Shown here piece after piece: positions 1,700 to 47,106 of a DNA stretch of 64,000 bases (the stretch's first letter is position 1; every line of letters begins with the position of its first letter). Origin of the DNA: Bolinopsis microptera (Eukaryota > Ctenophora > Tentaculata > Lobata > Bolinopsidae); contig NC_087079.1 in assembly GCF_026151205.1 (NCBI RefSeq), forward strand, positions 16,238,945 to 16,302,944, read 5' to 3'. The notes under the pieces were generated by a model, which was not told where the DNA came from, did not search any database, and saw only the letters and a program-made list of their open reading frames with translations. The position numbers and the translations under genes are program-made.

Positions 1700-2329
1700 C
1701 CGGCCGGCCGGCCGCGCGCGCGCTCAAAAGGGGTTACAGCGTGTGTCAAGTCAAACACGGCGCGCGCGTCTTGATAAGTTTAAAACGCTGCACGCACGAC
1801 TTGCCCTGCATCTAATCAGATTGCAATACTTTTTTAGTGCGTGTCGTTTAGCGTCACTAAAAACTTTTCAGATACTTTAGCGCTCAGGCATTCATGGGCC
1901 GGATATGAGCAAACAAAGAAGCGCGCTTCTATACTGGTTTCTATTATATATTATTGATTATGTATTGGTATAATTATATTTAATAACTATATACTAGATT
2001 GATTGACGATGTCAATCCGTCGAGATCGTTGCTCTGCGAAGGCAAGAATGCTAGTTCGCGCGGCGCGTCGAAGCGGCGAAGTCCTCCAACTATATAGAAT
2101 TATTTTAATTATTTATAGCAATAACTTAAACATGAAATTGAATCGTGCATTTAAATTTATAATGGACATTTTTTATTTTTGATCGTTTATAGAGCAATTA
2201 AATTAGTACAAAGCGAATATAAAAATATTAATTCACAAATAATGACATGAATATAGTGCACAATTTTTTTTAATACTTTCAACACTACTATATAACAAAT
2301 AATTTGAGTTCAGGGATAGCATGTATTAA

Positions 2330-2444
2330 GGCCCCCCAAGGGGAGACGTAAGTTTTCGTTGTTTTGTTGGCTGTGAAAGCTCTTACTGCATTACCGCTGC
2401 ACACTTGTGTTTATTTTAGATCATAGATATAGCTGATTTCTACT
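2330..2444 (+). other. Probable 5' UTR of the CR1-like LINE
   Basis: A GC-richer start (GGCCCCCCAAGGGG) marks a composition change from the AT-rich flank. The 115 bases between it and the ORF1 ATG are therefore read as the element's 5' UTR. No target-site duplication was confirmed, so the exact left end is an estimate. Confidence 0.4.
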
Positions 2445-4673
2445 ATGTCTGGTATTGCTAAGAGGCAAGGGAGAAACAAAGCCCTCTCCGCCAGTTCCAG
2501 TTCCAGTTCTACACCAACTCAACATAAATCAAAAACTGCTAAGAAGCACACATCATCATCCCTATCAGAGTTAGATGCTTCTTCAATAGCGCCCCAGCTG
2601 AACCTTACACCACACATTGCAATGCCAGCCATCCAGCACTCCCACAGAGATAAGAGGAAATGTCCCTGCGACCAGTCACTGGAATCGTCGTGGAAACTAG
2701 ACTGTGCCAAGTGTGGACAGTATTGGCATGCGAACTGCGTAGGCCTTAATGGACTAAATAGTAAGATGCTCAATGATCTCACACAATGGCCCTGTCCCTT
2801 TTGTTTTGTATCACCTATTGCTACTATATCCACCCAAGTTGACGTCTGTCACGTCTGCAGAAACACTTTATCACTACAGCAGTCAAACCTGGAAGCAGAA
2901 ACAGCACTCATTTCATCACAACTAGAACCCTTAGCCAATTGTTGCAAGCTCATTAAGGATATTGACTTTGTTCAATTCAGTAACAGAATTGACACACTTG
3001 GCCAATTTGACCAACGCCTTCAGCACCTCCTCCTAAAAGACCAGCCCTGGAAATCCTTAGACTCAGATATAAAGCTCCTTTCAGACCAGTTGGCCACTAC
3101 CCTAGATAAATCACCCACACCACCACTCAACACCACAATTGAAAACCTCACAACTGCCTTACAAACTCATGACAAGACTTTCCACTCACTCACCAACCAA
3201 CTAAATGAACTCAAACAGCAAGTCACATCCCTATCATCAGACATGACCACCTCACCAACATCAGATCAATCTGAAAAGCTCCTTGAACGGGTGTCACAAG
3301 AGCTCAGAGAGGTATGCAAGCAGGAGCTGAAGCAATCAACAGCAAATCTGCAGCATTCCTCAGAGCATCCACTGACCCTCCCTGGATTACAAGAGCTCAA
3401 CACCCAGGTTGTAACCCAGCTGCCCCCACACAGTCGCCCGCCTGTCTCTAAACACACTCTCGATTTTATTGATGAAGAGACAGAGAAGGATCTCATAGAA
3501 ATGCTTGATTCTCGCACATCTGAGTTCAAGAATGAGAATGGACGATCTGTTCTGGCTTTTGGAGAAAGATATCACTACACTGGCACAAAATCATCACCCT
3601 CATCCGACCAACTCCCAGACCAACTCCAATCACTCATAACACAACTGAACAATGATCATCCAAACTCTCCACCTGTCAACAGCATTCTCATCAATCGGTA
3701 TGATGGTCACTCAAGCTTCCTTCCACAACACTCAGACAACGAACCCCTCATTCACCCTGACTCATCAGTACACACACTTTCACTAGGTCACCATTGCACA
3801 GTCACTTTCAGCAAGACTGGCACCACAGAACCCTATCACAACCAGTCTTGTCCACCACGATCACTATACACTATGACCAGGGCAAGTCAGGATTTGTACG
3901 AACACAGAATTGAATCAGGATCTGTCGACTCCGGTGTTCGATACTCTGTGACCCTCAGATCTGTTAGTGCTCTAAACCGTGCTTCTACATGCATCATGGG
4001 AGATTCGAACACTGGTGGACTTAAATTTGGACTTGATCCTAAGAGATCCTTTGGAAAGTTCCTTCCTGGAAAACAAGTCTTCGCACCTACTGTAGACCAC
4101 ATTGACCCATACGAATCCTGCGGCTACAAAAACACTGTCATTCTCTGCGGACTCAATGATATTAGGCAGGATAATGTCAAAACTCCATCTGACATCAAAC
4201 AAGTGTTCAATAAATTTACTAGTAAAATTGCTGAAATTCAAGCTGTCAATAAAAAAACTAATGTTTATATATGTCCGCTGCTGCCAACTAAATGTATTGA
4301 TTTAAATAGAAGAGTCAATTTCTTTAACTATCTGATTCAAACCCAGCTTCTCCCTTTCAACTTTGGTGTGAGACTGGTAGAAGGGTTTCCAAGCTTTGCT
4401 GATGAGAACGGGCTATTAAGCCAACACTTGTCAAAAAGGTTGACGAAGTTCCAGAAACCTGATTACTTACACCTCAATTGGAGGGGGGTTGCAAAATTAG
4501 CAGCAATCATTAAAAATACTATTCTTCTTAGAGTTAATGGTGGTCGAGACAGACGCAGAGCTGGACGAGGGGGGAATCAGGTGGACTCCACATCATTTCG
4601 TGACATAACTGCACGCTCTCTTCCTGCTGATAAACGAGTATCTGGTGCTCCTGACGGCTACCAACCGTCATGA
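2445..4673 (+). CDS. LINE ORF1: PHD finger - AlkB-like dioxygenase - SGNH esterase
   Basis: A 742-residue protein. Residues 73-120 form a C4HC3 PHD-type finger (C73, C75, C87, C90, H95, C98, C117, C120), followed by one more CxxC pair (135/138). Residues 140-330 are Gln/Leu-rich and probably coiled. Residues 365-508 carry the AlkB set: NRYDGHSSFLPQHSD (iron ligands H429 and D431), a SLG-containing strand, H487 in YEHRI, and R499 and R505 in GVRYSVTLR, the RxxxxxR pair that binds 2-oxoglutarate and substrate in AlkB. Residues 515-690 carry SGNH hydrolase blocks: GDSN (S521), GLND (N571) and DYLH (D673, H676). The tail is basic (GGRDRRRAGRGG) and may bind RNA. The ATG at 2445 gives the longest frame. 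PHD and esterase are known in CR1-like ORF1; the dioxygenase is the unexpected part. Its demethylase function is inferred from motifs only. Confidence 0.85.
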   Translation: MSGIAKRQGRNKALSASSSSSSTPTQHKSKTAKKHTSSSLSELDASSIAPQLNLTPHIAMPAIQHSHRDKRKCPCDQSLESSWKLDCAKCGQYWHANCVGLNGLNSKMLNDLTQWPCPFCFVSPIATISTQVDVCHVCRNTLSLQQSNLEAETALISSQLEPLANCCKLIKDIDFVQFSNRIDTLGQFDQRLQHLLLKDQPWKSLDSDIKLLSDQLATTLDKSPTPPLNTTIENLTTALQTHDKTFHSLTNQLNELKQQVTSLSSDMTTSPTSDQSEKLLERVSQELREVCKQELKQSTANLQHSSEHPLTLPGLQELNTQVVTQLPPHSRPPVSKHTLDFIDEETEKDLIEMLDSRTSEFKNENGRSVLAFGERYHYTGTKSSPSSDQLPDQLQSLITQLNNDHPNSPPVNSILINRYDGHSSFLPQHSDNEPLIHPDSSVHTLSLGHHCTVTFSKTGTTEPYHNQSCPPRSLYTMTRASQDLYEHRIESGSVDSGVRYSVTLRSVSALNRASTCIMGDSNTGGLKFGLDPKRSFGKFLPGKQVFAPTVDHIDPYESCGYKNTVILCGLNDIRQDNVKTPSDIKQVFNKFTSKIAEIQAVNKKTNVYICPLLPTKCIDLNRRVNFFNYLIQTQLLPFNFGVRLVEGFPSFADENGLLSQHLSKRLTKFQKPDYLHLNWRGVAKLAAIIKNTILLRVNGGRDRRRAGRGGNQVDSTSFRDITARSLPADKRVSGAPDGYQPS

Positions 4674-7600
4674 CTACTCTAACTAAAGAGGTATGTAAAC
4701 ACTGCTGCAAGGGTATCTATGTGGGCCAAGCCATAGTCGAGTGTTCCGAATGTAACCATGCAACTCATCATAAATGCTACAATATTGTCAATACCGATTT
4801 ATGCGGTAACTTTCTCTGCAATACATGTGTAAATCTTGCTGTAAAACGATACAACCCGTTCAAATATGATATTTCCGACGAAGAAATCGATCTAGACGAT
4901 ACGATAACTAAGCTCTCGCAAATTTTAAACAGTTGTTCTCAGCTTAACAGAAGTCAAATTAATCAAACTCTAGAAACTTTAACCGAAGGTCAAATGTCAA
5001 TGATGTTTCAAAACATAGACGGTAACAAAAGTAACTTTGATACTATGTGTATAGATCTTCGCCGATATAACAAAAAGTTTTCCATAATTGCACTTGCTGA
5101 AACAAATGTAGGACCTGAATTAAGTAGTTTGTATCAATTAACCGAATACAATAGTTTTTACCAAGCAACCTTTCGAGAGAAAAAGAAGGGCACCGGAGTT
5201 GCAATTTATATCCACCAGTCACTAAATGCAACAATCGATAATACCCTCTCCTATGTGAGTGAAAACCTAGAAATCCTATTTTTAAGATTCAACAGTGGTA
5301 ACTCAAGCACCTTTGTTGGAGTTTTATACCGCCCTCCGAGTGGCAATTTTGACTTAGCGCTAAGTGAACTAGCCGACACTCTGGACAAAGTCCCCAGACA
5401 CTCGTATATAGCTGGTGACTTTAACATCAATCTTCACGGCGACAGCAACAAGGTTGCTAAATATGAACACGTTCTTTACAGTCGAGGCTTCTATCCTCTC
5501 ATATCTGTAATGACCCATGAAAAACCCGGCTGTATTCCTTCATGCATCGATAACATCATTACCAATGATTTAGACAACATTATAACATCTGGCACATTCA
5601 AAGACAAAATCACACATCATCACCCCATATTCTTAGCACTCAACACACACCTTGACCAGAACGATTGCAAGATTAAGTATGAACAGTTTTATGACTACTG
5701 TAACTCTAACGTAGATAAGTTCACCGACAAACTATCCAATAGTCTTGATAACACTGTAATAAATTGTTTTGATACCTTTGCTGACACATTTAACGTTGCT
5801 TTTGACGAATGTTTCAAGTTAGAAACCCCGAAATGTACAAAACGCACTATGCAAAACAATCCATGGATTACACCAGCAATTATAACATCAATAAATCACT
5901 GTCACGAACTATACGAAAACTGGGTCAAAGCTCGCAAAGTCAAGTGCAATCTAGGAGATACTGACACAAAAGGTGGCTTCTGTCACTGCGCAGTATGTAA
6001 CAAAAAGCGCAGTGAGTACTTAACTTATAAATATTATAGAAAAGAACTCAAAGTTATACGTGAAAAGGCTCAAACTTCGTACAATATGGGTAAATTTAAT
6101 GAAGTTCAAGGTGACAGTAAGAAAACATGGCAACTAATCAATAAGATACGCGGCAAAGGGAAACGAGAAATTAAACCCCCGTTTGTTATTAATAATGAGA
6201 AAATAATGAACCGTAGAATTATAGCTAACGAATTTAATAATTACTTTGTATCTCTTGCCCCTAAGTTGAATGAATCATACAGTACAACCGGTCAAATTAG
6301 ACTAAGTCCAATTCAATGCTTTACGGACTACTTACCAAGGCCAAATACCTCAAGTATATTTCTCAGCGATTGTACACCAGAAGAAATAGAGAAAATCATT
6401 AGCGAACTCAAGAATGGAAAAGCTAGTGACATCCCTATTCACGTCATCAAACGAACGTCTAAGATTATAAGCCCACTCCTGTCAGTATTATTTAATGAAC
6501 ACATGAGAAATGGAACTTTTCCAGACCGACTGAAAATTGGTAAAATTAGCCCTATATACAAAAAAGACGGTACAGAATATCTCGAAAACTATAGGCCAGT
6601 ATCTACCCTAGCTGTGTTCGGAAAGTTATTTGAGAAAGTAATCTACTCCCGTTTGTACAGTTTTCTTGTGTCGCAGAACGTTTTGTTTGAGAACCAGTTT
6701 GGTTTTAGGAAGAGTCACTCAACTAACCACGCCCTTAATTACTCAGTTGACTATGTAAACTCCCATATAAAGGAAAAGCAACATGTATTAGGTATCTTTA
6801 TTGACTTATCAAAGGCATTTGACACTATCAGTCACGATAAACTTCTCATAAAACTTGACAAATATGGTATAAGAGGTAACGCAAACGAGCTTATTGGAAG
6901 TTACCTATCTAACAGACAGCAGTACGTTTCAGTTTTAGGTGAGGAATCTGATAAACTCCCTGTTATTTGTGGAGTACCACAAGGTAGTGTTTTAGGACCG
7001 CTACTGTTTATAATTTACATAAACGATATCTATAACTCATCAGACCTAGGAAAATTTATACTTTTCGCTGATGACACCAATATATTTGTAGTCGACAAAT
7101 CTGTCCAGAATCTCTACCAAAAAGCTAATACTATAATGAATTCTGTTTACAATTATATGAAATGCAATCTTCTCCACATTAACATCAAGAAATGCTGTTA
7201 CATTCACTTTACACCAGGAAAGAAGGATGTAACTAGTAGTAGTAGTAATAGTAATGATCTTATTTTAACGTTGAATAACACAGTCATTAAACGTGTTGAT
7301 GAAACTAAATTCCTCGGCGTTATTATAGATAAAAACCTTAACTGGAAACCTCATACTGCATATCTTAGTTCTAAATTAAAGTGTGAAGTCGGTAAACTCT
7401 GCCGTATGAGAAGATTTATACCTAAAGAGCTGTATAATGACCTCTACCACACCCTCTTCGAATCTCATCTAGGATATGGGATCTCAGTGTGGGGAGGCAT
7501 ATCGAACAATAGGCTTGAACCAATATTTAAAATTCAAAAAAAGTGCACTCGTATTCTATTTGGTGATCAAGAGGCATACAGTAATAAGTTCAAAACATGT

Positions 7601-8020
7601 GCTAGAACCCGCCCAATTGGATCCCAAAAACTTGGAGCCGACTTCTATAAACGAGAATCAAGTAAACCCCTTCTCAGCAGAAACAAAATACTCTGCGTGC
7701 ATAATTTGTATAAGTACCACTGTCTACTTGAAATGTTTAAAATAATCAAACTTCACACTCCAATACCGATGTACAATTTATTTCAAAAGTCACCCCGACG
7801 TGATAACTACTTTATTAACCCCGCTGCAACCAATTTGTTTGTATATAAAACCTCGAATATGTGGAATAAATTCCTTAAACCTTCTAGTAAGATTGACTTC
7901 TCGTCCCCAATTGCACTTGTTAAAGGTCGCATTAAAACTATGCTACTCAATGCTCAAAAAGCTGGAAACACTGATGAATGGTCAGAACTCAACTTTGATG
8001 GAAATGACATGTGCCTATAA
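4670..8020 (+). CDS. LINE ORF2: zinc finger - endonuclease - reverse transcriptase
   Basis: A 1,116-residue pol protein. Residues 9-53 form a PHD/RING-like Cys/His finger (C9, C12, C25, C28, H33 or H34, C36, C50, C53). The exonuclease-endonuclease-phosphatase domain follows at about 112-325: FQNIDG (N115), AETN (E144), YRPPSG, GDFNIN (D250, N252) and THHHPIF, a variant of the usual SDHxP box. A small Cys cluster sits at 426-443. The reverse transcriptase spans about 620-900, with NYRPVSTL, DLSKAFD (714-718), GVPQGSVLGPLLF and the catalytic FADD at 799-802. It nicks target DNA and copies the element RNA at the nick. The ATG overlaps the ORF1 stop, which suggests translation by termination-reinitiation. 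No inactivating change is visible. Confidence 0.93.
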   Translation: MTTLTKEVCKHCCKGIYVGQAIVECSECNHATHHKCYNIVNTDLCGNFLCNTCVNLAVKRYNPFKYDISDEEIDLDDTITKLSQILNSCSQLNRSQINQTLETLTEGQMSMMFQNIDGNKSNFDTMCIDLRRYNKKFSIIALAETNVGPELSSLYQLTEYNSFYQATFREKKKGTGVAIYIHQSLNATIDNTLSYVSENLEILFLRFNSGNSSTFVGVLYRPPSGNFDLALSELADTLDKVPRHSYIAGDFNINLHGDSNKVAKYEHVLYSRGFYPLISVMTHEKPGCIPSCIDNIITNDLDNIITSGTFKDKITHHHPIFLALNTHLDQNDCKIKYEQFYDYCNSNVDKFTDKLSNSLDNTVINCFDTFADTFNVAFDECFKLETPKCTKRTMQNNPWITPAIITSINHCHELYENWVKARKVKCNLGDTDTKGGFCHCAVCNKKRSEYLTYKYYRKELKVIREKAQTSYNMGKFNEVQGDSKKTWQLINKIRGKGKREIKPPFVINNEKIMNRRIIANEFNNYFVSLAPKLNESYSTTGQIRLSPIQCFTDYLPRPNTSSIFLSDCTPEEIEKIISELKNGKASDIPIHVIKRTSKIISPLLSVLFNEHMRNGTFPDRLKIGKISPIYKKDGTEYLENYRPVSTLAVFGKLFEKVIYSRLYSFLVSQNVLFENQFGFRKSHSTNHALNYSVDYVNSHIKEKQHVLGIFIDLSKAFDTISHDKLLIKLDKYGIRGNANELIGSYLSNRQQYVSVLGEESDKLPVICGVPQGSVLGPLLFIIYINDIYNSSDLGKFILFADDTNIFVVDKSVQNLYQKANTIMNSVYNYMKCNLLHINIKKCCYIHFTPGKKDVTSSSSNSNDLILTLNNTVIKRVDETKFLGVIIDKNLNWKPHTAYLSSKLKCEVGKLCRMRRFIPKELYNDLYHTLFESHLGYGISVWGGISNNRLEPIFKIQKKCTRILFGDQEAYSNKFKTCARTRPIGSQKLGADFYKRESSKPLLSRNKILCVHNLYKYHCLLEMFKIIKLHTPIPMYNLFQKSPRRDNYFINPAATNLFVYKTSNMWNKFLKPSSKIDFSSPIALVKGRIKTMLLNAQKAGNTDEWSELNFDGNDMCL

Positions 8021-9640
8021 TAAGAACATACAAACTAGTCCATATAGATTTCATACTACACACACAAAATAACACACACAATACACACCACAGTCAAACA
8101 TAGAAACTATATATTCACACATATAACACAGAACACTGATCAGCTCACCCGCTTTACACTAGTGTCTGGACTTGTCTGGAGTGTACGTCTGGAACGTGGG
8201 ACGGACTCACAAATATATTGTGTAAACGTACGGCGCGAAACTTAAATATTGTATAACTCTATCATTTCATTACCCAGCGTGATTTACCGCGCCAGATTAA
8301 TGAAATGACGCCGCGCTATATCCGTGAACCTACCGTCACTTATATCTTATATTTTATATTTCGTATCTCTTACTACGTAACGCGAAATTAAGTTGTATCA
8401 CACTCCCGGTTTTGGACCCCAATGTTAACCTTGCAGCAACTGTGTCAGCCCAATATACTCTAGAAGTATGATCACACTTATTTTAATGAACAAAAGACCC
8501 ATAATTAATATAATCAGATACTCGTCAACAGCAGCAGTTTCCGTCCGTGTGATGTGTTGTCCTCCTCCTTTCTGTGTCCCCGTCGTTTTGTTTTGTGAAA
8601 TGTATTGTAGTAGTGTTTTAATATTTAAATCGAACGCAACTCAATAGTTAATAATAACAAACACAAATACTATTTCAAATAATTGATTAATATCGATTTA
8701 TACGAACCAAACATTAATTATTTTTTTAATAACCTTTTATATATGTGTTAAACGATCCAGGGCATATCTAAAATTCGATAATGAACTTCATATATTATTA
8801 GTGCCGCGTGCTGATAAATATTCTGGGAATCAATCCACCCAATCGTGGCGATAACATATTTTTGTGCTTGGCCGGTTTTAGGTTTGAGTTTGTGCTCCAA
8901 AAGTGGTAAATCGGGTGCTAGTAAAGCTCTTGCAGGCAACTGGCTCCTTTTGCCAACTGCTTTTGGTTTAAGCGCGGACTCACATTTGGAACTGGCACTG
9001 GTATAATTGTAATATCCTACGAAGTCAGCATGCTATATTATTTTGCAAAACTCGTTTAATATCTTGACAATATTTAAAGTTTATGGATTTAGGTTTAGGC
9101 GCGGCGCACTGCTTATATGTTATAGCTCATTCAGCTTCTGTTTTCAGCGATGTGTTGCTACACACTGTATAGCATGTGGAACAAGCGCGGTGCCGCGCCT
9201 AAGCAGCAAAAGAGTTATTTATTTTAAAATTTATTTTTGTATCTCAAAAATGATGTAAAGTTTTTAATATGACGTAGAATTAAAGCTATTTCCGTACAGC
9301 CTAAGTGCTAAGCATGCTCGTTAGATAAACTATGAACAATGAACATAACATGCTAGCTTTCTTTATTTTTGTAAGTCGTGTCGGCTGACATCTTGGGTTG
9401 TACTGGATGTAACAAGTTTATTATCGGATGTCTACTTATATTTATTATGATATCATTATTCATTGTAATGGCAATAAAATTTAAATTTTGTTTTACTTAA
9501 ATTTTGTTTTACTTAATTGAACAACAAATTATTTGATCACTTTTATGTTTTAGTTTATTTATTATTTGTAATGTTGCAGGTTTATAATGTATAAAAACCT
9601 TTTAAACTTTTAATCTTTTGTATTTACAATTTTCTTATAT
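8021..9640. other. LINE 3' UTR and intergenic sequence
   Basis: The first 600 or so bases, rich in ACACAC and TATA motifs, are probably the 3' UTR of the LINE. Beyond about 8640 the sequence is AT-rich with GC-rich islets (for example GCGCGGCGCAC near 9098 and CGCGGTGCCGCGCC near 9187). No supported gene; an open stretch on the minus strand at 8748-8939 has no recognisable content. Confidence 0.4.
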
Positions 9641-9642
9641 AG

Positions 9643-11130
9643 ATTTTTTAAAAAGGGCTCTAAGTCTGACCCTCTTAACTATAGACCAGTTTCTCTTACC
9701 TGTATTCTTTGTAAAGTTTATGAACAGTTTGTTAGATCCCATGTGTTAGAATTTTTAGAAGACCGTATTTCAAAGGACCAACATGGGTTTGTTAAAGGAA
9801 AATCTTGTTTGTCAAATCTTTTGGAGACTTTCGACACTATACTTAATTTAATAGATGAAGGTGCTCCTGTGGACTTATTTTATTTTGATTTTAGTAAAGC
9901 TTTCGATTCTGTTCCCCATTATCGCTTGATTAACAAGCTAGAGAGTCTAGGGATAACTGGTAAAGTTTTAGTGTAATTACAGATTTTATCTCAAATAGAA
10001 CTATGAGAGTGTGTGTAGAAGGTGAAACTTCAGAGTGGAAGATTGTATGGTCAGGAGTTCCCCAGGGATCAGTCCTTGGACCATTACTATTTGTGTTATT
10101 TATTAATGATTTACCAGATAACATTAAAAGTAAAGTTAAAATATTTGCTGATGATCTTAAGCTTATAGCTAATGCCTCCGAGCATGAAACTATAGCTAAT
10201 GATCTGAACGAACTAGAGATGTGGGAGAGTAAATGGCTTTTAAAGTTTAATCCTACTAAGTGTTCAGTAATGCATTTAGATGTTAACGATAACCCAAGAT
10301 CAAGTTATTCTCTTAATGGAGTTACATTGGCAGAATCTGTACAGGAAAAAGACTTGGGAGTTATAACCCATAACTCTCTGCTTTGGAATGAACAGATTAA
10401 GGCTTCAATATCTAAAGCCAACAGAATGATATGTTGGATTGTTAGAAATTTGATTATCAGGGAAAAATCTGTGATGATATCCATTTACAAAGCTTTGATA
10501 AGACCCCATTTAGAGTATTGTGTTCAATTGTGGAGTCCAGTTGCGGCTCATGGAAGTTGGGGGATCATCTTGGAGCTGGAGAGTGTCCAGAGGCGGTTTA
10601 CCCGTCTGATTGACGAGGTGGGTACTCTTCCATACAGTCGTCGACTGGAAATCCTCAATTTAACAACGCTGGCAGAGCGGCGAATACGTGGGGACCTCAT
10701 TGAATCTTTTAAAATGATAAGTGGTTTGGCCAATTACGGAGCTGGTTTGTTCAGTATGAGCAGATCTGGTTTTAATGTGGTATCAAACAGTAGATGCAGT
10801 AAAAGTAGCAGTAAAATGAAGAAAGTCCACAGTTCTTTTCTTCCGGAGAGGGTGAGACCTTATTGGAACAAACTCCCCTCGGATGTCAAGAATTGTGGGA
10901 CTGTGTTAAGTTTTAAAATAAGATTAGAAGCTTTCAAAAAAGAGACTATTTTAAACGGATCCGTAAATGATATTCATTTTTGGTATGTTTCGGACGAAGT
11001 ATTAGGGAAGATTGAGGGATTAAATTATGCTACTAATAAAGAGAAGCACAATGAATATCTTGTGTGTAATCCTCATGTTGCTAAGAAACGCTTTATTAAC
11101 TTATATAGTAGTGGAAAGTATGTAAATTAG
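9643..11130 (+). pseudogene. Reverse transcriptase of truncated LINE, one frameshift
   Basis: The frame open at 9743-9976 carries DQHGFVKGKSCLSN and YFDFSKAFDSVPH. The frame open at 10003-11130 continues with SGVPQGSVLGPLLF, the catalytic FADD and the C-terminal region ending NPHVAKKRFINLYSS. The two halves belong together and are separated by one small frameshift between about 9965 and 10000. The endonuclease and the start of the RT are missing. The catalytic residues persist, so inactivation is recent or the indel is a sequence error. Confidence 0.85.
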
Positions 11131-11235
11131 ATTCATTTTATCTTGGTTGTTTAGGCCAATAGATTTAAGATATTTTTAAAACTTTAGTAGATATATTTTT
11201 GATGATGTGTGATGATGTTTGTGTCATTATATTTT

Positions 11236-11262
11236 GATTTGATTTGATTTGATTTGATTTAT
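11236..11262 (+). repeat. GATTT tandem tail of LINE
   Basis: Consecutive GATTT units immediately downstream of the truncated LINE's 3' UTR, read as its replicated terminal repeat. Confidence 0.75.
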
Positions 11263-33540: not shown

Positions 33541-36500
33541 TGCAGTATTCTGTAAAACCCTCTGGTGTCGAGATTACTCCATCAGATCCCAAATTCGGAT
33601 CCACTATTGTTAAGGAGACCCGCATCCAGTAGGGACTGTTGGCGGTAAGCTACAGCTCCTGCTGGTAATCGACTCGGAAAACAGTAGTGGTCCGCGTTTT
33701 TGGGTTGGAAATGAACACCAGATCGAAAACAGTTCCCCAGCTAGAATCCACACTTACTGCTCCTATACCCCCTCCTAGAAGCCGTAAATCTCTAAATCCC
33801 ACCTCCCTTAGTGAAAAGCATGCTCTCCCTATCCACATTCACAAAAGAGCACAAGAAATCCAAGCTCCTAACACAGCCATAGATGAGTTCATAACATCGG
33901 AAAGACTGAAATCTAACAGACAACAGATCCTAATATCAGACCACAGCACCCAAGAAGATATCTGTCCAACATGCCACCTAGGTGTTCTTGCTGAACAAGA
34001 TGGGCTCCTTTGTGAACAGTGCAATGTTTGGCACCATCCCATTTGTGAGGAAATCAACACCAAAGAATACAAACACCTCCAAGATGAAAAGTTTGACATA
34101 GCATTTGTATGTGGTAACTGTGAAAAACAACGCCTTACTACATCCACTTTACCTCCCCCGGATGCAGTCATCGCATCGATCAACAATGCAAAATGGGGAG
34201 TCCTAAAAGGTTTACAGATAAGGCCAGCTGTAGACTCTATCTACAAGAGGGTAGTCCTTTGGAAGAAGAACATGTTTAAGGTACCGAAAGGCAAGATAGG
34301 AGAGAGTTTTATTGAGGAAGTTGCCAATACCATCAATCTCTTTAACAGTGGCTCTAACCTTGAGAGTGTTGCAATTACTATGACGCTTATAATTTTTCCC
34401 CTCCTGCTCCAGAAACCCTCCAAATCCTCTAAAGCCAAAGACCATGTAGCACACCTGGAAAGAAGACTCCAACTATGGAAAGATGGCGAAATAGAGAAGC
34501 TCGCTAGGGAATGTAAATCAATACAAGATCGCCTACTCAAATCTAAGTACAGCCCAGGACATCACAACAAAGTCTTTACACGACTCATGTTACTAGGAAA
34601 AGTCTCCGCAGCCTTAAGATGGAATGGGAGCCAGAGAAGTAAACTCCTGGACACAAGCCCTACTGTCATACAGGAACTCATAAAGAAACACCCCGAAAGC
34701 AGCCCATCACTCGAATCTAGTCTGATGAAGGGACCCATTGAAGAAGTAGACAACGTCATATTTGATTCCATTGATTCCAGCAGAATTGAAAAGGTTGCAA
34801 GAGACCTCAGCGGATCTGGTGGGCCCTCAGGAACTGATGCAGAGACATGGCAGCATATTCTCTGCTCTAAGCAGTTTAAGAAAAAGCCTGAACTTCTAAA
34901 AGAAGCAGTCGCAGTTTTGGCCAGAAAGCTGTGTTGCCAAAAGATACAGCCCGACCACCTGAAAACATACATAGCAGGTCGCCTCATCCCCCTTGATAAA
35001 GACCCAGGGGTTAGACCCATTGGGATTGGTGAAGTCCTTAGAAGAATAGTCGGAAAAGCAGTGATGACCACATTGAAACAGGACATTATCATGAACACAG
35101 CACCCATGCAACTGTGTGGTGGCTTACAAGGAGGAGTGGAAGCGGCCATTCATGCAGTCAGAAAGATCTTTGAAGAGGAATCCACAGAAGCGATCCTGCT
35201 TGTTGATGCTGAAAACGCCTTCAATGCATTAAATCGCAACACAGCCCTTAGGAATCTTCGATACACCTGTCCAGAGCTATTCACTTACATCCTAAATACA
35301 TACAGACAAGAAGCTAACCTATTCATTGCCAACAGTGATGACCACTTACAATCTCAGGAAGGAACTACACAGGGAGATACCTGTGCACTCGGATGGTATG
35401 CACTGAGCCTAATGCCTCTGCTCAGAGAAGTCCAGGTTAAACAGACAGAACCTGAAACAGAACTAGAATCAGACAGGGAACCCAACACTTATCCCAAACA
35501 AGTTTGGTATGCTGACGACTCTGCAGCAGGGGGTAAACTTGATCAACTCACGAAATGGTGGGAGGACCTTAAAGATCATGGTCCCATGTATGGGTATTAC
35601 CCAAAACCCAGCAAGACATGGTTGATAGTGAAACCAGAGCATGCAACCAAAGCTAAGGAACTCTTTCCAGATGTTCAGATCACTACCAAAGGCCACCGTT
35701 ATCTTGGGTCATATATTGGATCAGAAGAAGGGGTAAAAGAGTTCATACTAAAGGAGACCGAAAGTTGGAAAGCAGACATTCTCGGACTCGTCGAAATAGC
35801 TGCAAACGAACCCCAGCTAGCCTACTCCGCTTTCATCTACGGAACCTCCAAAAGATGGAATTTTGTTTGCCGTACAACCCCAGGGATTTCCGACCATCTG
35901 AAACTCTTGGAATATTGTGTCAAGGAAGACTTTATACCAGCCATTATGGGCAAAAGTTTTGTGCCTGATCAAATCAGAAAAATAGCTTCACTTCCTGCAA
36001 GAATGGGCGGGCTGAGCATTCCAGACTGCACATCAACAGCAGAGATGGAGTACACTAACTCAGTAAATGCTACAAAACAGCTCACAGAAGCAGTTTTTCA
36101 ACAGCTTACTACTTTCCAACTAAACGGAGAACTGCAGCATGACATCATAAGTGAAGTAAAGAAGCGTAAGGAAGAGCTTTACAAACACCAACGTGAAACT
36201 ATTACGAATGAGGTATCCCCATCAACACAAAGGCAATTAGAACTCCTTAGTGAAAAAGGAGCATCCATTTGGTTATCCACACTCCCTCTAAAAGCATGTG
36301 GGTACGTCCTTAACAAACAAGAATTCTTTGATGCCCTCTCACTCAGATATAATCTTACACTGTCTACAGCTAACAGAAGTCCCCTATGTGTATGTGGAAA
36401 TCAAAATCATATCAACCATACTCTAACCTGCAAAATCGGAGGCTACGTTTCACTTAGACACAATTCACTAAGAGATACAATAGCTGAACTCCTAACCACT

Positions 36501-37236
36501 GTTTGCAAAGACGTTGAAACAGAACCCCAGCTTCTCTCCGTTCCTCACACACTTGAACTATCTAATGGAACAAATAGACAGGATGGTGCAAGACTGGACA
36601 TCAGTGCGAGATCGTTTTGGTCGCCGCTGGACAGGGCATTCACAGATGTAAGGGTACTTCACCCTCAAGCCCAGTCCAACAGTGACAAGAGCATCTCACA
36701 GATGTACCAATCTCACGAGAAAAGCAAAAAACGTGAGTACAATGACAGAGTCCTCAATGTTGAAAAGGCTACCTTCACGCCACTGGTGTTCAGTACTACA
36801 GGAGGAATGGCAACTGAGGCTTCACAGTTTCTAAAACATCTCGCTGAAAAGATCAGCCTAAAGAAAGGCCAACGGTATTGTGATGTGATGTCATTTGTCA
36901 GACGCAGACTGCGTTTTGATCTACTCAGAACCTGTATAATCTCTATCAGGGGGTACAGAGGTACCAGAACCCTTCCACCCACGGCAATAAGTGATTTGGA
37001 CCTTAACCTGATCAACACTCTTAAACCCTAAAAGGTCATGCTCTAGTTGGATGGGGGTCTAAACTGCTTTTTGTTGTGATGTGATTTAGTGGATTTTATA
37101 TATTATATTATTACAAAGGGTTTTATTTTTATTTCTACCTCAGTTTTTAAATTTGTACCATTTTTACAGAATTTTATATAGGGTCATTGCTATATTATGT
37201 GTATTATATTGTTTGAATATCTTTTTATATACACAT
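33541..37236 (+). mobile_element. RLE-type non-LTR retrotransposon (R2/NeSL/Hero-related)
   Basis: One long intact pol ORF with an estimated 170-base leader and a 200-base T-rich 3' region. The nuclease is C-terminal and restriction-like, with no apurinic endonuclease at the N-terminus, which places it among RLE LINEs. The exact ends are not defined: no target duplication was recognised and the 3' side runs directly into an oppositely oriented relative. Confidence 0.7.
33711..37031 (+). CDS. RLE LINE pol: PHD finger - reverse transcriptase - CCHC - PD-(D/E)XK nuclease
   Basis: 1,106 residues from the ATG at 33711; an open GTG extends eight codons upstream. Residues about 85-137 form a C4HC3 PHD finger (CPTC, CEQC, WHHPIC, CGNC). 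The RT covers about 420-680: RLIPLDKDPGVRPIGIGE, the catalytic DAENAFNAL (499 region), GTTQGDTCALGWYAL and YADD at 600-603, followed by WW...GPMYGYYPKPSKTWL. A helical linker follows. The C-terminus has CVCGNQNHINHTLTC and GGYVSLRHN, then ARLDIS...FTDVRVLHP, the spacing of a PD-(D/E)XK nuclease. R2 itself carries C2H2 fingers N-terminally, so a PHD there is a variation. No stop or frameshift; likely young. Clade assignment is by motif memory only. Confidence 0.88.
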   Translation: MNTRSKTVPQLESTLTAPIPPPRSRKSLNPTSLSEKHALPIHIHKRAQEIQAPNTAIDEFITSERLKSNRQQILISDHSTQEDICPTCHLGVLAEQDGLLCEQCNVWHHPICEEINTKEYKHLQDEKFDIAFVCGNCEKQRLTTSTLPPPDAVIASINNAKWGVLKGLQIRPAVDSIYKRVVLWKKNMFKVPKGKIGESFIEEVANTINLFNSGSNLESVAITMTLIIFPLLLQKPSKSSKAKDHVAHLERRLQLWKDGEIEKLARECKSIQDRLLKSKYSPGHHNKVFTRLMLLGKVSAALRWNGSQRSKLLDTSPTVIQELIKKHPESSPSLESSLMKGPIEEVDNVIFDSIDSSRIEKVARDLSGSGGPSGTDAETWQHILCSKQFKKKPELLKEAVAVLARKLCCQKIQPDHLKTYIAGRLIPLDKDPGVRPIGIGEVLRRIVGKAVMTTLKQDIIMNTAPMQLCGGLQGGVEAAIHAVRKIFEEESTEAILLVDAENAFNALNRNTALRNLRYTCPELFTYILNTYRQEANLFIANSDDHLQSQEGTTQGDTCALGWYALSLMPLLREVQVKQTEPETELESDREPNTYPKQVWYADDSAAGGKLDQLTKWWEDLKDHGPMYGYYPKPSKTWLIVKPEHATKAKELFPDVQITTKGHRYLGSYIGSEEGVKEFILKETESWKADILGLVEIAANEPQLAYSAFIYGTSKRWNFVCRTTPGISDHLKLLEYCVKEDFIPAIMGKSFVPDQIRKIASLPARMGGLSIPDCTSTAEMEYTNSVNATKQLTEAVFQQLTTFQLNGELQHDIISEVKKRKEELYKHQRETITNEVSPSTQRQLELLSEKGASIWLSTLPLKACGYVLNKQEFFDALSLRYNLTLSTANRSPLCVCGNQNHINHTLTCKIGGYVSLRHNSLRDTIAELLTTVCKDVETEPQLLSVPHTLELSNGTNRQDGARLDISARSFWSPLDRAFTDVRVLHPQAQSNSDKSISQMYQSHEKSKKREYNDRVLNVEKATFTPLVFSTTGGMATEASQFLKHLAEKISLKKGQRYCDVMSFVRRRLRFDLLRTCIISIRGYRGTRTLPPTAISDLDLNLINTLKP

Positions 37237-38237
37237 CTACTCCATCATAGGGGCAGGGATGAGGTTATAAGAGACTTCTGATAGTGGTGTCTCATATTTG
37301 CTGTCCATTTTTTTCCCTCTGTACCCTCGTAGAGCTATGAGTGTGGTTCTTAACATAGCGAATCTTATTCTTGTCCTTACATGTCTTACCACATCGCAAT
37401 ACCTCTCTTTTCTTCCTCTGATTCCCCTCAGTGCAATGAGTGTACTTCTTAACAGATCGAATCTGAATCGTGTTCTGATGTGATTTTGGACTTGGCTCTT
37501 GGCTTCTTTTTTGTGGTCAGCTATCATCTCAGAGACACGATCTACAAACACTGTGCAGAGTGATCCCATACCTCCGGAGGTTGTGAAGACTAGAGGGATA
37601 AAGGATCCCTTCTCCGACTGAAGTACTCTCTCTTCATACAAATCTTTCTTTTCTTTCTCATGATCTCTATAGATCTTATCTAGTGGCTTAAATGTATTTG
37701 TGTCACAGTTAGGATGTGTGACCCTGATGTCATAGAATGTTCTTTCAAAAGGTGCATACAATCCGACAGCTGCTACATCAAGACGGGCTTCATCCTGGGT
37801 GTTGGTCTTCCTTGAGAATGAGCTTGGTTGGACTGGTATGAGTGCTGGTTCTATCCTTACGTCTTTACACTTTGCTTCTCGGAGGAAGAAAGCAGCAGTG
37901 TCTCTTATGGCATTGTGGCACATAGAAACGTATCCACCTAGTTTACAGTCAAGGGCGTTATAGATACATTTCCGCATGCATATTTAAGGAATACAAACTC
38001 CTGCCTGTTCAGAACATAGTTGAGGTCCTTCAGTGGTAGTGTTGAGAGCCATGTTGAGGCTCCCTTCTCTCTTGCTTGGTCTAGGTGGTTCTTAAGAGGA
38101 TGATCTGACTCATTATAGAGCACCTTGAACCTTTGGGAGAGAACCTCCTCTTTCTGTTTCCTCAGTTCTTTTTTCTTTTCTTTTATCTTGCCCAGGTCCA
38201 GCTTGGTAATATCCTGGTCTTGTTGGTTTTCATTCAT
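37237..38237 (-). pseudogene. Broken C-terminal copy of a related RLE LINE
   Basis: Two minus-strand frames (38237-37938 and 37977-37237) match the C-terminal third of the 33.7-kb pol: EKGASTWLSTLPLKDLNYVLNRQEF, LGGYVSMCHNAIRDT, ARLDVAA...FYDIRVTHP and SGGMG. The segment between the helical linker and the CCHC block is partly deleted and the frame shifts there. No RT remains. The end is unusual: the RTRFRFDLLRSTLIALRG block occurs twice, 33 residues apart and diverged. It lies tail-to-tail with the intact element. Confidence 0.8.

Positions 38238-46363: not shown

Positions 46364-47106
<743 letters not shown>

Follow-up and report, generated by a model that had tools for sequence, protein, structure and literature searches.

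The window analysed here is a stretch of 64,000 nucleotides of the Bolinopsis microptera genome (assembly GCF_026151205.1, contig NC_087079.1, positions 16,238,945 to 16,302,944 of the forward strand). It contains a long interspersed nuclear element (LINE) of about 7.25 kb (window 2265..9516, + strand) that encodes an AlkB-type dioxygenase domain of its own. The domain lies in the first open reading frame (ORF1, 742 amino acids (aa), 2445..4673, +), for which the open frame, Pfam matches and an alignment of 21 proteins indicate a PHD-type finger, a helical region, the AlkB domain, an SGNH hydrolase-like domain and a basic tail. The original prediction, made from the sequence of the window, had described this fusion in one LINE; the fusion in a LINE ORF1 is real, but the scope was too narrow, since several LINE families and a Helitron join AlkB and SGNH domains. 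We tentatively propose, with doubt somewhat outweighing belief, that AlkB plus SGNH may form an accessory module that is under selection and can pass between mobile elements of eukaryotes, a self-carried repair kit that would clear N1 and N3 methyl lesions from single-stranded intermediates.

Domains of the ORF1 protein

The AlkB domain (2OG-FeII_Oxy_2, where 2OG stands for 2-oxoglutarate) occupies residues 331-510 of ORF1 (3435..3974, +) and was assigned from Pfam, its residues and a fold match. The Pfam match to 2OG-FeII_Oxy_2 spans residues 373-505 with an E-value of 9.3e-14. All the residues that had been read from the sequence are in place: the Fe ligands H429, D431 and H487, and R499 and R505 of the RxxxxxR pair as defined for the AlkB family (PMC544882), along with the C4HC3 finger and the GDSN, GLND and DxxH blocks of the SGNH domain. 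Also present are E433, an acid four residues past the first Fe ligand (H+4), and an aromatic pair, Y376 and Y378, which in the alignment falls on the Y-x-Y/F stretch of ALKBH2-type proteins. Conservation was counted in a table of 39 rows, collected by similarity to ORF1 or to AlkB, over the rows that cover each position. The Fe ligands and the arginine pair are nearly invariant among sister copies (H429 in 38/38 rows, D431 in 37/38, H487 in 33/33, R499 in 32/33 and R505 in 33/33); for E433 the count is 37 of 38 and for Y376/Y378 it is 34 of 35. For E433, the counts were taken from the 21- and 39-row residue tables, the rows of the trees having been cut by a pattern that contains E. The structural match to AlkB proteins on which the prediction depended was found when the predicted structure was compared with known structures, families unlisted in that comparison not being counted as excluded; an AlkB fold is present in ORF1. 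Two profile searches of the PDB both ranked ALKBH2 first.

The C4HC3 finger (residues 73-120; 2661..2804, +) keeps its eight ligand positions in 19 of the 21 aligned rows, the other two (P0018 and P0019) being without a finger. The profile of the ORF1 family matches the PDB at about 1e-3 and a sister ORF1 matches PHD_4 at 4e-6, below the Pfam cut-off; the Pfam PHD match of the window ORF1 is insignificant (E-value 0.42). The predicted finger stands by its ligands but not by Pfam, a weak point; its assignment to the PHD type is suggested by the ligand pattern, the PDB profile match and the match of the sister ORF1. A helical, probably coiled-coil region follows (residues 141-303; 2865..3353, +), in which the AlphaFold2 model has helices with low predicted local distance difference test scores and a profile match to a designed coiled coil was obtained (8e-4).

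Behind the AlkB domain, an SGNH hydrolase-like domain (residues 515-697; 3987..4535, +) with S521, N571, D673 and H676 is indicated by conserved blocks, the structure model and a PDB profile match (1.2e-4). Its residues are kept in 31/32 (S521), 29/29 (N571), 25/25 (D673) and 24/25 (H676) of the covering rows of the 39-row table. Sister ORF1s give GDSL matches below the Pfam cut-off; the ORF1 of one family (L017) is without the GDSN block, and the position of its serine is uncertain. In the window ORF1, Pfam gives no GDSL match up to an E-value of 1, a second weak point, and NCBIfam no match; the esterase of the original prediction is upheld by blocks, model, profile and the sub-cut-off matches of the sister ORF1s.

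AlkB-bearing elements elsewhere in the genome and selection on the domain

Other copies were sought and found in the same genome, which contains at least four further LINE families with AlkB and SGNH domains, plus a probable fifth. All five have PF13532 matches of 2.6e-19 to 4.7e-16 and GDSL matches of 5e-6 to 1e-3, the latter below the Pfam cut-off. The L025 minus-strand family (ORF1 of 703 aa) has at least 11 full copies at 98-100% identity and at least 9 at 83-84%, from the 40 of 106 candidates that were scored. The L025 plus-strand family (ORF1 of 667 aa; ORF2 44% identical to the window ORF2) has three full copies and one near-full copy at 90% with a broken frame. The L017 plus-strand family (ORF1 of 624 aa, without a PHD finger) has 26 full copies at 98-100%, and its ORF2 is 25% identical to that of the window. 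The L038 family has an ORF1 of 551 aa and then an endonuclease ORF that runs past the end of the L038 sequence, and the L039 family, with an ORF1 of 593 aa, is only probably a LINE. A two-copy 3' repeat in the L025 plus-strand family (ATATTTGTTTTATTCTG, at L030:5655-6400) resembles the 3' unit of the window element.

In a search of the genome for PF13532, 150 of the 587 candidates were scored and yielded at least 151 matches; those listed are all above the cut-off, and every row but the last is free of internal stops. By eye, 15 rows among the matches listed share a 551-aa frame and 10 share a 593-aa frame, and the recurrence of frames of 551, 593, 611, 646, 676, 707 and 843 aa suggests that there are more transposon families. 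The two top rows, L041 (ALKBH2-like) and L042 (ALKBH3-like), look like host genes. A Helitron on contig C10 has a single frame of 3388 aa (spanning the overlapping pieces L037:4883-10000 and L040:2-5146), the first half of which encodes an SGNH domain (4.7e-5, below cut-off) followed by AlkB (3.3e-21), the reverse of the order in the LINEs; the second half encodes Helitron_like_N (7.3e-23) and a PIF1 helicase (4.7e-22). Five more AlkB frames of 2225-3366 aa are among the PF13532 matches listed.

Searching with ORF1 residues 320-520 gave four proteins, and a profile search gave 20; a precomputed PF13532 annotation exists for 18 of the 20. Two rows of the 21-row alignment (P0016 and P0017) are truncated; alignment A3 comprises 17 of the 21 rows, with P0002, P0016, P0017 and P0019 left out. 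Aligned AlkB regions are as little as 31% identical to that of the window. Scans of viral contigs and genome contigs gave pattern matches and no relative.

The ratio of nonsynonymous to synonymous substitution rates (dN/dS), proposed earlier as a check, is 0.15 for AlkB between the L025 minus-strand ORF1 and L031, which belong to sister families and are both open (180 codons, dS 1.07, dN 0.162); the value for SGNH is 0.10, that for the coiled-coil region 0.21 and the overall value 0.18. The AlkB domain is under purifying selection between these two sister families, the only pair that allowed a good measurement. Comparison of the window AlkB with four near-identical copies gave ratios of 0.23-0.31, each based on 6-8 changes; the AlkB of a fifth copy (L012) is unchanged, and in the same four copies the coiled-coil region gave 0.76-1.53. 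Of the remaining AlkB values, 0.49 with L015 comes from a weaker comparison; those of 0.86 with L016, which has 20 stops and lies on an error-rich contig, and 0.71 with L032 (at least 29 stops in every frame) were set aside as unusable. Along L025 (4328-6439, -) versus L031, dS is strongly uneven, from 0.03 in the PHD finger to 1.07 in AlkB, and the identity of P0005 to the window ORF1 falls from 93% in the PHD finger to 37% in AlkB. The ORF1s look like mosaics, such as would arise if families recombined or switched templates. Divergence from the window ORF1 is very uneven in both P0005 and P0006, with the PHD finger near-identical and AlkB distant.

Trees of AlkB sequences borne by transposable elements (TEs) were built from 38, 38 and 29 rows, with near-duplicates and short fragments left out. 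A single clade of LINE AlkBs was not rejected in two trees (approximately unbiased test, p-AU 0.40 and 0.41), nor was a single clade of all TE rows (p-AU 0.452). None of these results demonstrates a clade. When two host rows are included, a branch at 92/78 (not starred) separates the TE rows from the rest. The hypothesis that the TE AlkBs group exclusively with the host ALKBH2-like row was rejected (p-AU 0.0013), an older ALKBH2/3 origin lying outside this test. Several rows are on long branches, the Helitron row foremost.

Substrate and role of the AlkB domain

The life cycle of LINEs includes RNA and cDNA stages, and that of Helitrons a stage of single-stranded DNA (ssDNA); these intermediates would explain an AlkB domain in both, and we infer that AlkB may protect the nucleic acid of the element. 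The explanation that best fits the whole, on which belief and doubt are almost balanced, is that the ORF1 protein would gather on the element RNA and dock at membranes, with AlkB repairing element RNA or cDNA and the PHD finger touching chromatin. The protein would assemble on the RNA through its helical region and basic tail, and the esterase would dock it at membranes, as proposed for zebrafish ZfL2-1. AlkB would oxidatively strip N1-methyladenine and N3-methylcytosine lesions from the single-stranded RNA or cDNA of the element, where they could otherwise halt the reverse transcriptase, and at insertion the PHD finger may make contact with chromatin. For the Helitron, the AlkB and SGNH pair would serve the ssDNA intermediate.

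Sequence comparison favours a demethylase of the N1-methyladenosine/N3-methylcytidine (m1A/m3C) type over an eraser of N6-methyladenosine (m6A). D135 of AlkB, four residues past the first Fe ligand, makes contact with the exocyclic amine of A and C, and homologues that act on 3-methylcytosine (3-meC) and 1-methyladenine (1-meA) conserve it (PMC2800194); in ALKBH3, the flipped base is held in part by Tyr143 (PMC10816986). The preference is drawn from the well-kept E433, which stands at the place of D135, together with Y376/Y378. Several observations weigh against it. The assignment rests on one acid and overall fit; Y376/Y378 sit where the confidence of the model is lower (about 74), and their equivalence to Tyr143 of ALKBH3 is putative. 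The best Foldseek E-value for the domain is to ALKBH6, the top phmmer matches are ALKBH8 and ALKBH6, and ALKBH8 is second, above ALKBH3, in both profile searches (9.2e-12 and 4.5e-11). Some copies may be inactive, because P0031 does not keep D431 and R499, nor P0034 E433.

The contrary possibility, that AlkB removes host m6A from element RNA or N6-methyladenine from element DNA and so evades silencing, has been proposed for orchid Gypsy elements (PMC9289625). It is doubtful here, though worth keeping in mind: E433 is at the position that marks 1-meA/3-meC homologues (PMC2800194), and ALKBH5 is absent among the 27 PDB sequences matched by the AlkB profile at E-values of 0.001 or less, although it does appear among the structure matches. 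Other substrates, namely tRNA as for ALKBH8, N7-methyl groups as for ALKBH6, or protein, would suit the Foldseek and phmmer rankings and the second place of ALKBH8, but ALKBH8 is without the H+4 acid (HIDTH in the alignment) and ALKBH2 is first by profile, which makes such a substrate improbable.

A gag-like role, with AlkB chiefly the RNA- or ssDNA-binding part of the ORF1 protein and its chemistry secondary, is unlikely. It would fit the esterase ORF1s in RepBase, which have no structured RNA-binding domain according to a paper reporting also that the ZfL2-1 esterase binds acidic phospholipids (PMC3905857), and the orchid H448A mutant, which still binds RNA (PMC9289625); binding alone, however, does not need Fe and 2OG ligands that are near-invariant across AlkB regions down to 31% identity. 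A chance motif or false AlkB domain is ruled out by Pfam, structure and conservation. TEs do take up host sequence, but passive carriage of a captured host fragment is not favoured, given an AlkB dN/dS of 0.15, and conserved homologues, the presence in several families and the rejected grouping with the host ALKBH2-like row (p-AU 0.0013) also speak against it; capture of this kind, or a false domain call, is extremely improbable.

The element, its surroundings and known systems

The window element is an APE-type LINE (with an apurinic/apyrimidinic-type endonuclease), recently copied. Its length follows from copy L009, which aligns over 2265-9514 (98.9%), and from copies L012, L013 and L016, which finish at 9514-9517; the 5' end at 2265 is a minimum. 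As LINE insertion predicts, L012 and L013 are 5'-truncated, starting within ORF1, and share the 3' end of the element, while L010 and L011 stop short of it, at 8070 and 7830. Around the element copies there were repeats of chance length only, and no clear target-site duplication. Four full-length ORF1 copies, the window one included, are 99-100% identical. The intact element of the original prediction was confirmed: ORF1 is uninterrupted and the 1116-aa ORF2 (4670..8020, +) is open too, as both are in L009, whereas ORF2 is interrupted in L010 and L011 has a stop within ORF1 and is missing its 3' part.

ORF2 overlaps the ORF1 stop codon in the sequence ATGA (4670-4673). It encodes an N-terminal zinc-finger-like stretch (aa 5-42; 4682..4795, +; C1_1 E-value 0.01, with Prok-RING_1 at 5.6e-4 in a sister ORF2, both below the Pfam cut-off), an APE-like endonuclease (aa 131-300; 5060..5569, +; Exo_endo_phos 1.6e-6, above the cut-off) and a reverse transcriptase (RT; aa 631-886; 6560..7327, +; RVT_1 1.7e-36) that matches R2 and LINE-1 ORF2p in the PDB at about 1e-14. 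The 3' untranslated region of 1.5 kb (8021..9516, +) has a 3' end common to four copies and closes with a 16-bp tandem unit in 2.2 copies (9481..9516, +), the same end being found in L009, L012, L013 and L016.

Elsewhere in the window, a remnant of another LINE RT (9677-11260, +), 29-34% identical to ORF2, contains a TTTGA tandem repeat (11233-11260). A single-ORF retroelement of 1114 aa (33687-37031, +) has matches to a PHD-like finger (1.6e-3) and RVT_1 (2.7e-6), both below the Pfam cut-offs. Two further ORFs (37237-37977, - and 340-897, -) resemble its C-terminal part by eye and have no significant Pfam match. An ORF at 46367-46963 (+) encodes an RNA recognition motif (RRM_1 4e-19) and by eye resembles an exon of a serine/arginine-rich splicing factor, probably from a host gene.

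If the proposed role is true, LINEs and a Helitron of a single animal genome bring along a repair or eraser enzyme for nucleic acids, at a copy number that is high and recent, and the conflict between host and transposon extends to base repair. Tests are opened of whether alkylation of RNA or ssDNA limits transposition and of what esterase-type ORF1 proteins do. There is also a warning for annotation: many PF13532 proteins of such genomes belong to transposons and are not host ALKBH genes.

As the original prediction had supposed, no described LINE with PHD, AlkB and SGNH domains in ORF1 was found by searches aimed at this architecture in open-licence (CC0, CC BY or CC BY-SA) PubMed Central papers, a scope that leaves paywalled papers and Repbase outside; the only TE-borne AlkB found there is that of the orchid Ty3/Gypsy elements (PMC9289625). 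Type IV (esterase) ORF1s of CR1/L2 elements, such as zebrafish ZfL2-1, likewise have an SGNH-type domain behind a helical region in an APE-type LINE (PMC3905857, PMC4120745), but no AlkB. PHD-type ORF1s of CR1/L2 LINEs share the PHD finger, without AlkB plus esterase behind it in the subgroups listed (PMC4120745). Table 1 of that paper has no subgroup with AlkB, or with PHD and esterase together, and gives the esterase in two vertebrate groups only. Flexiviridae polyproteins are an RNA-parasite parallel, with the HxD, H and RxxxxxR of AlkB, but in a viral polyprotein and with no reverse transcription (PMC544882). Fungal DNA transposons with TET/JBP likewise encode a 2OG/Fe dioxygenase, of another family (PMC12730594). 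The paALKBH5-like Ty3/Gypsy elements of Phalaenopsis are likewise retrotransposons that encode their own AlkB-family dioxygenase with HxD...H (PMC9289625). They are plant long terminal repeat elements with the AlkB in an extra ORF, nested in AlkBH5 homologues and with m6A activity shown, whereas the Bolinopsis element has a LINE ORF1 fusion in which an AlkB domain nearest by profile to ALKBH2 is combined with a PHD-type finger and an SGNH domain.
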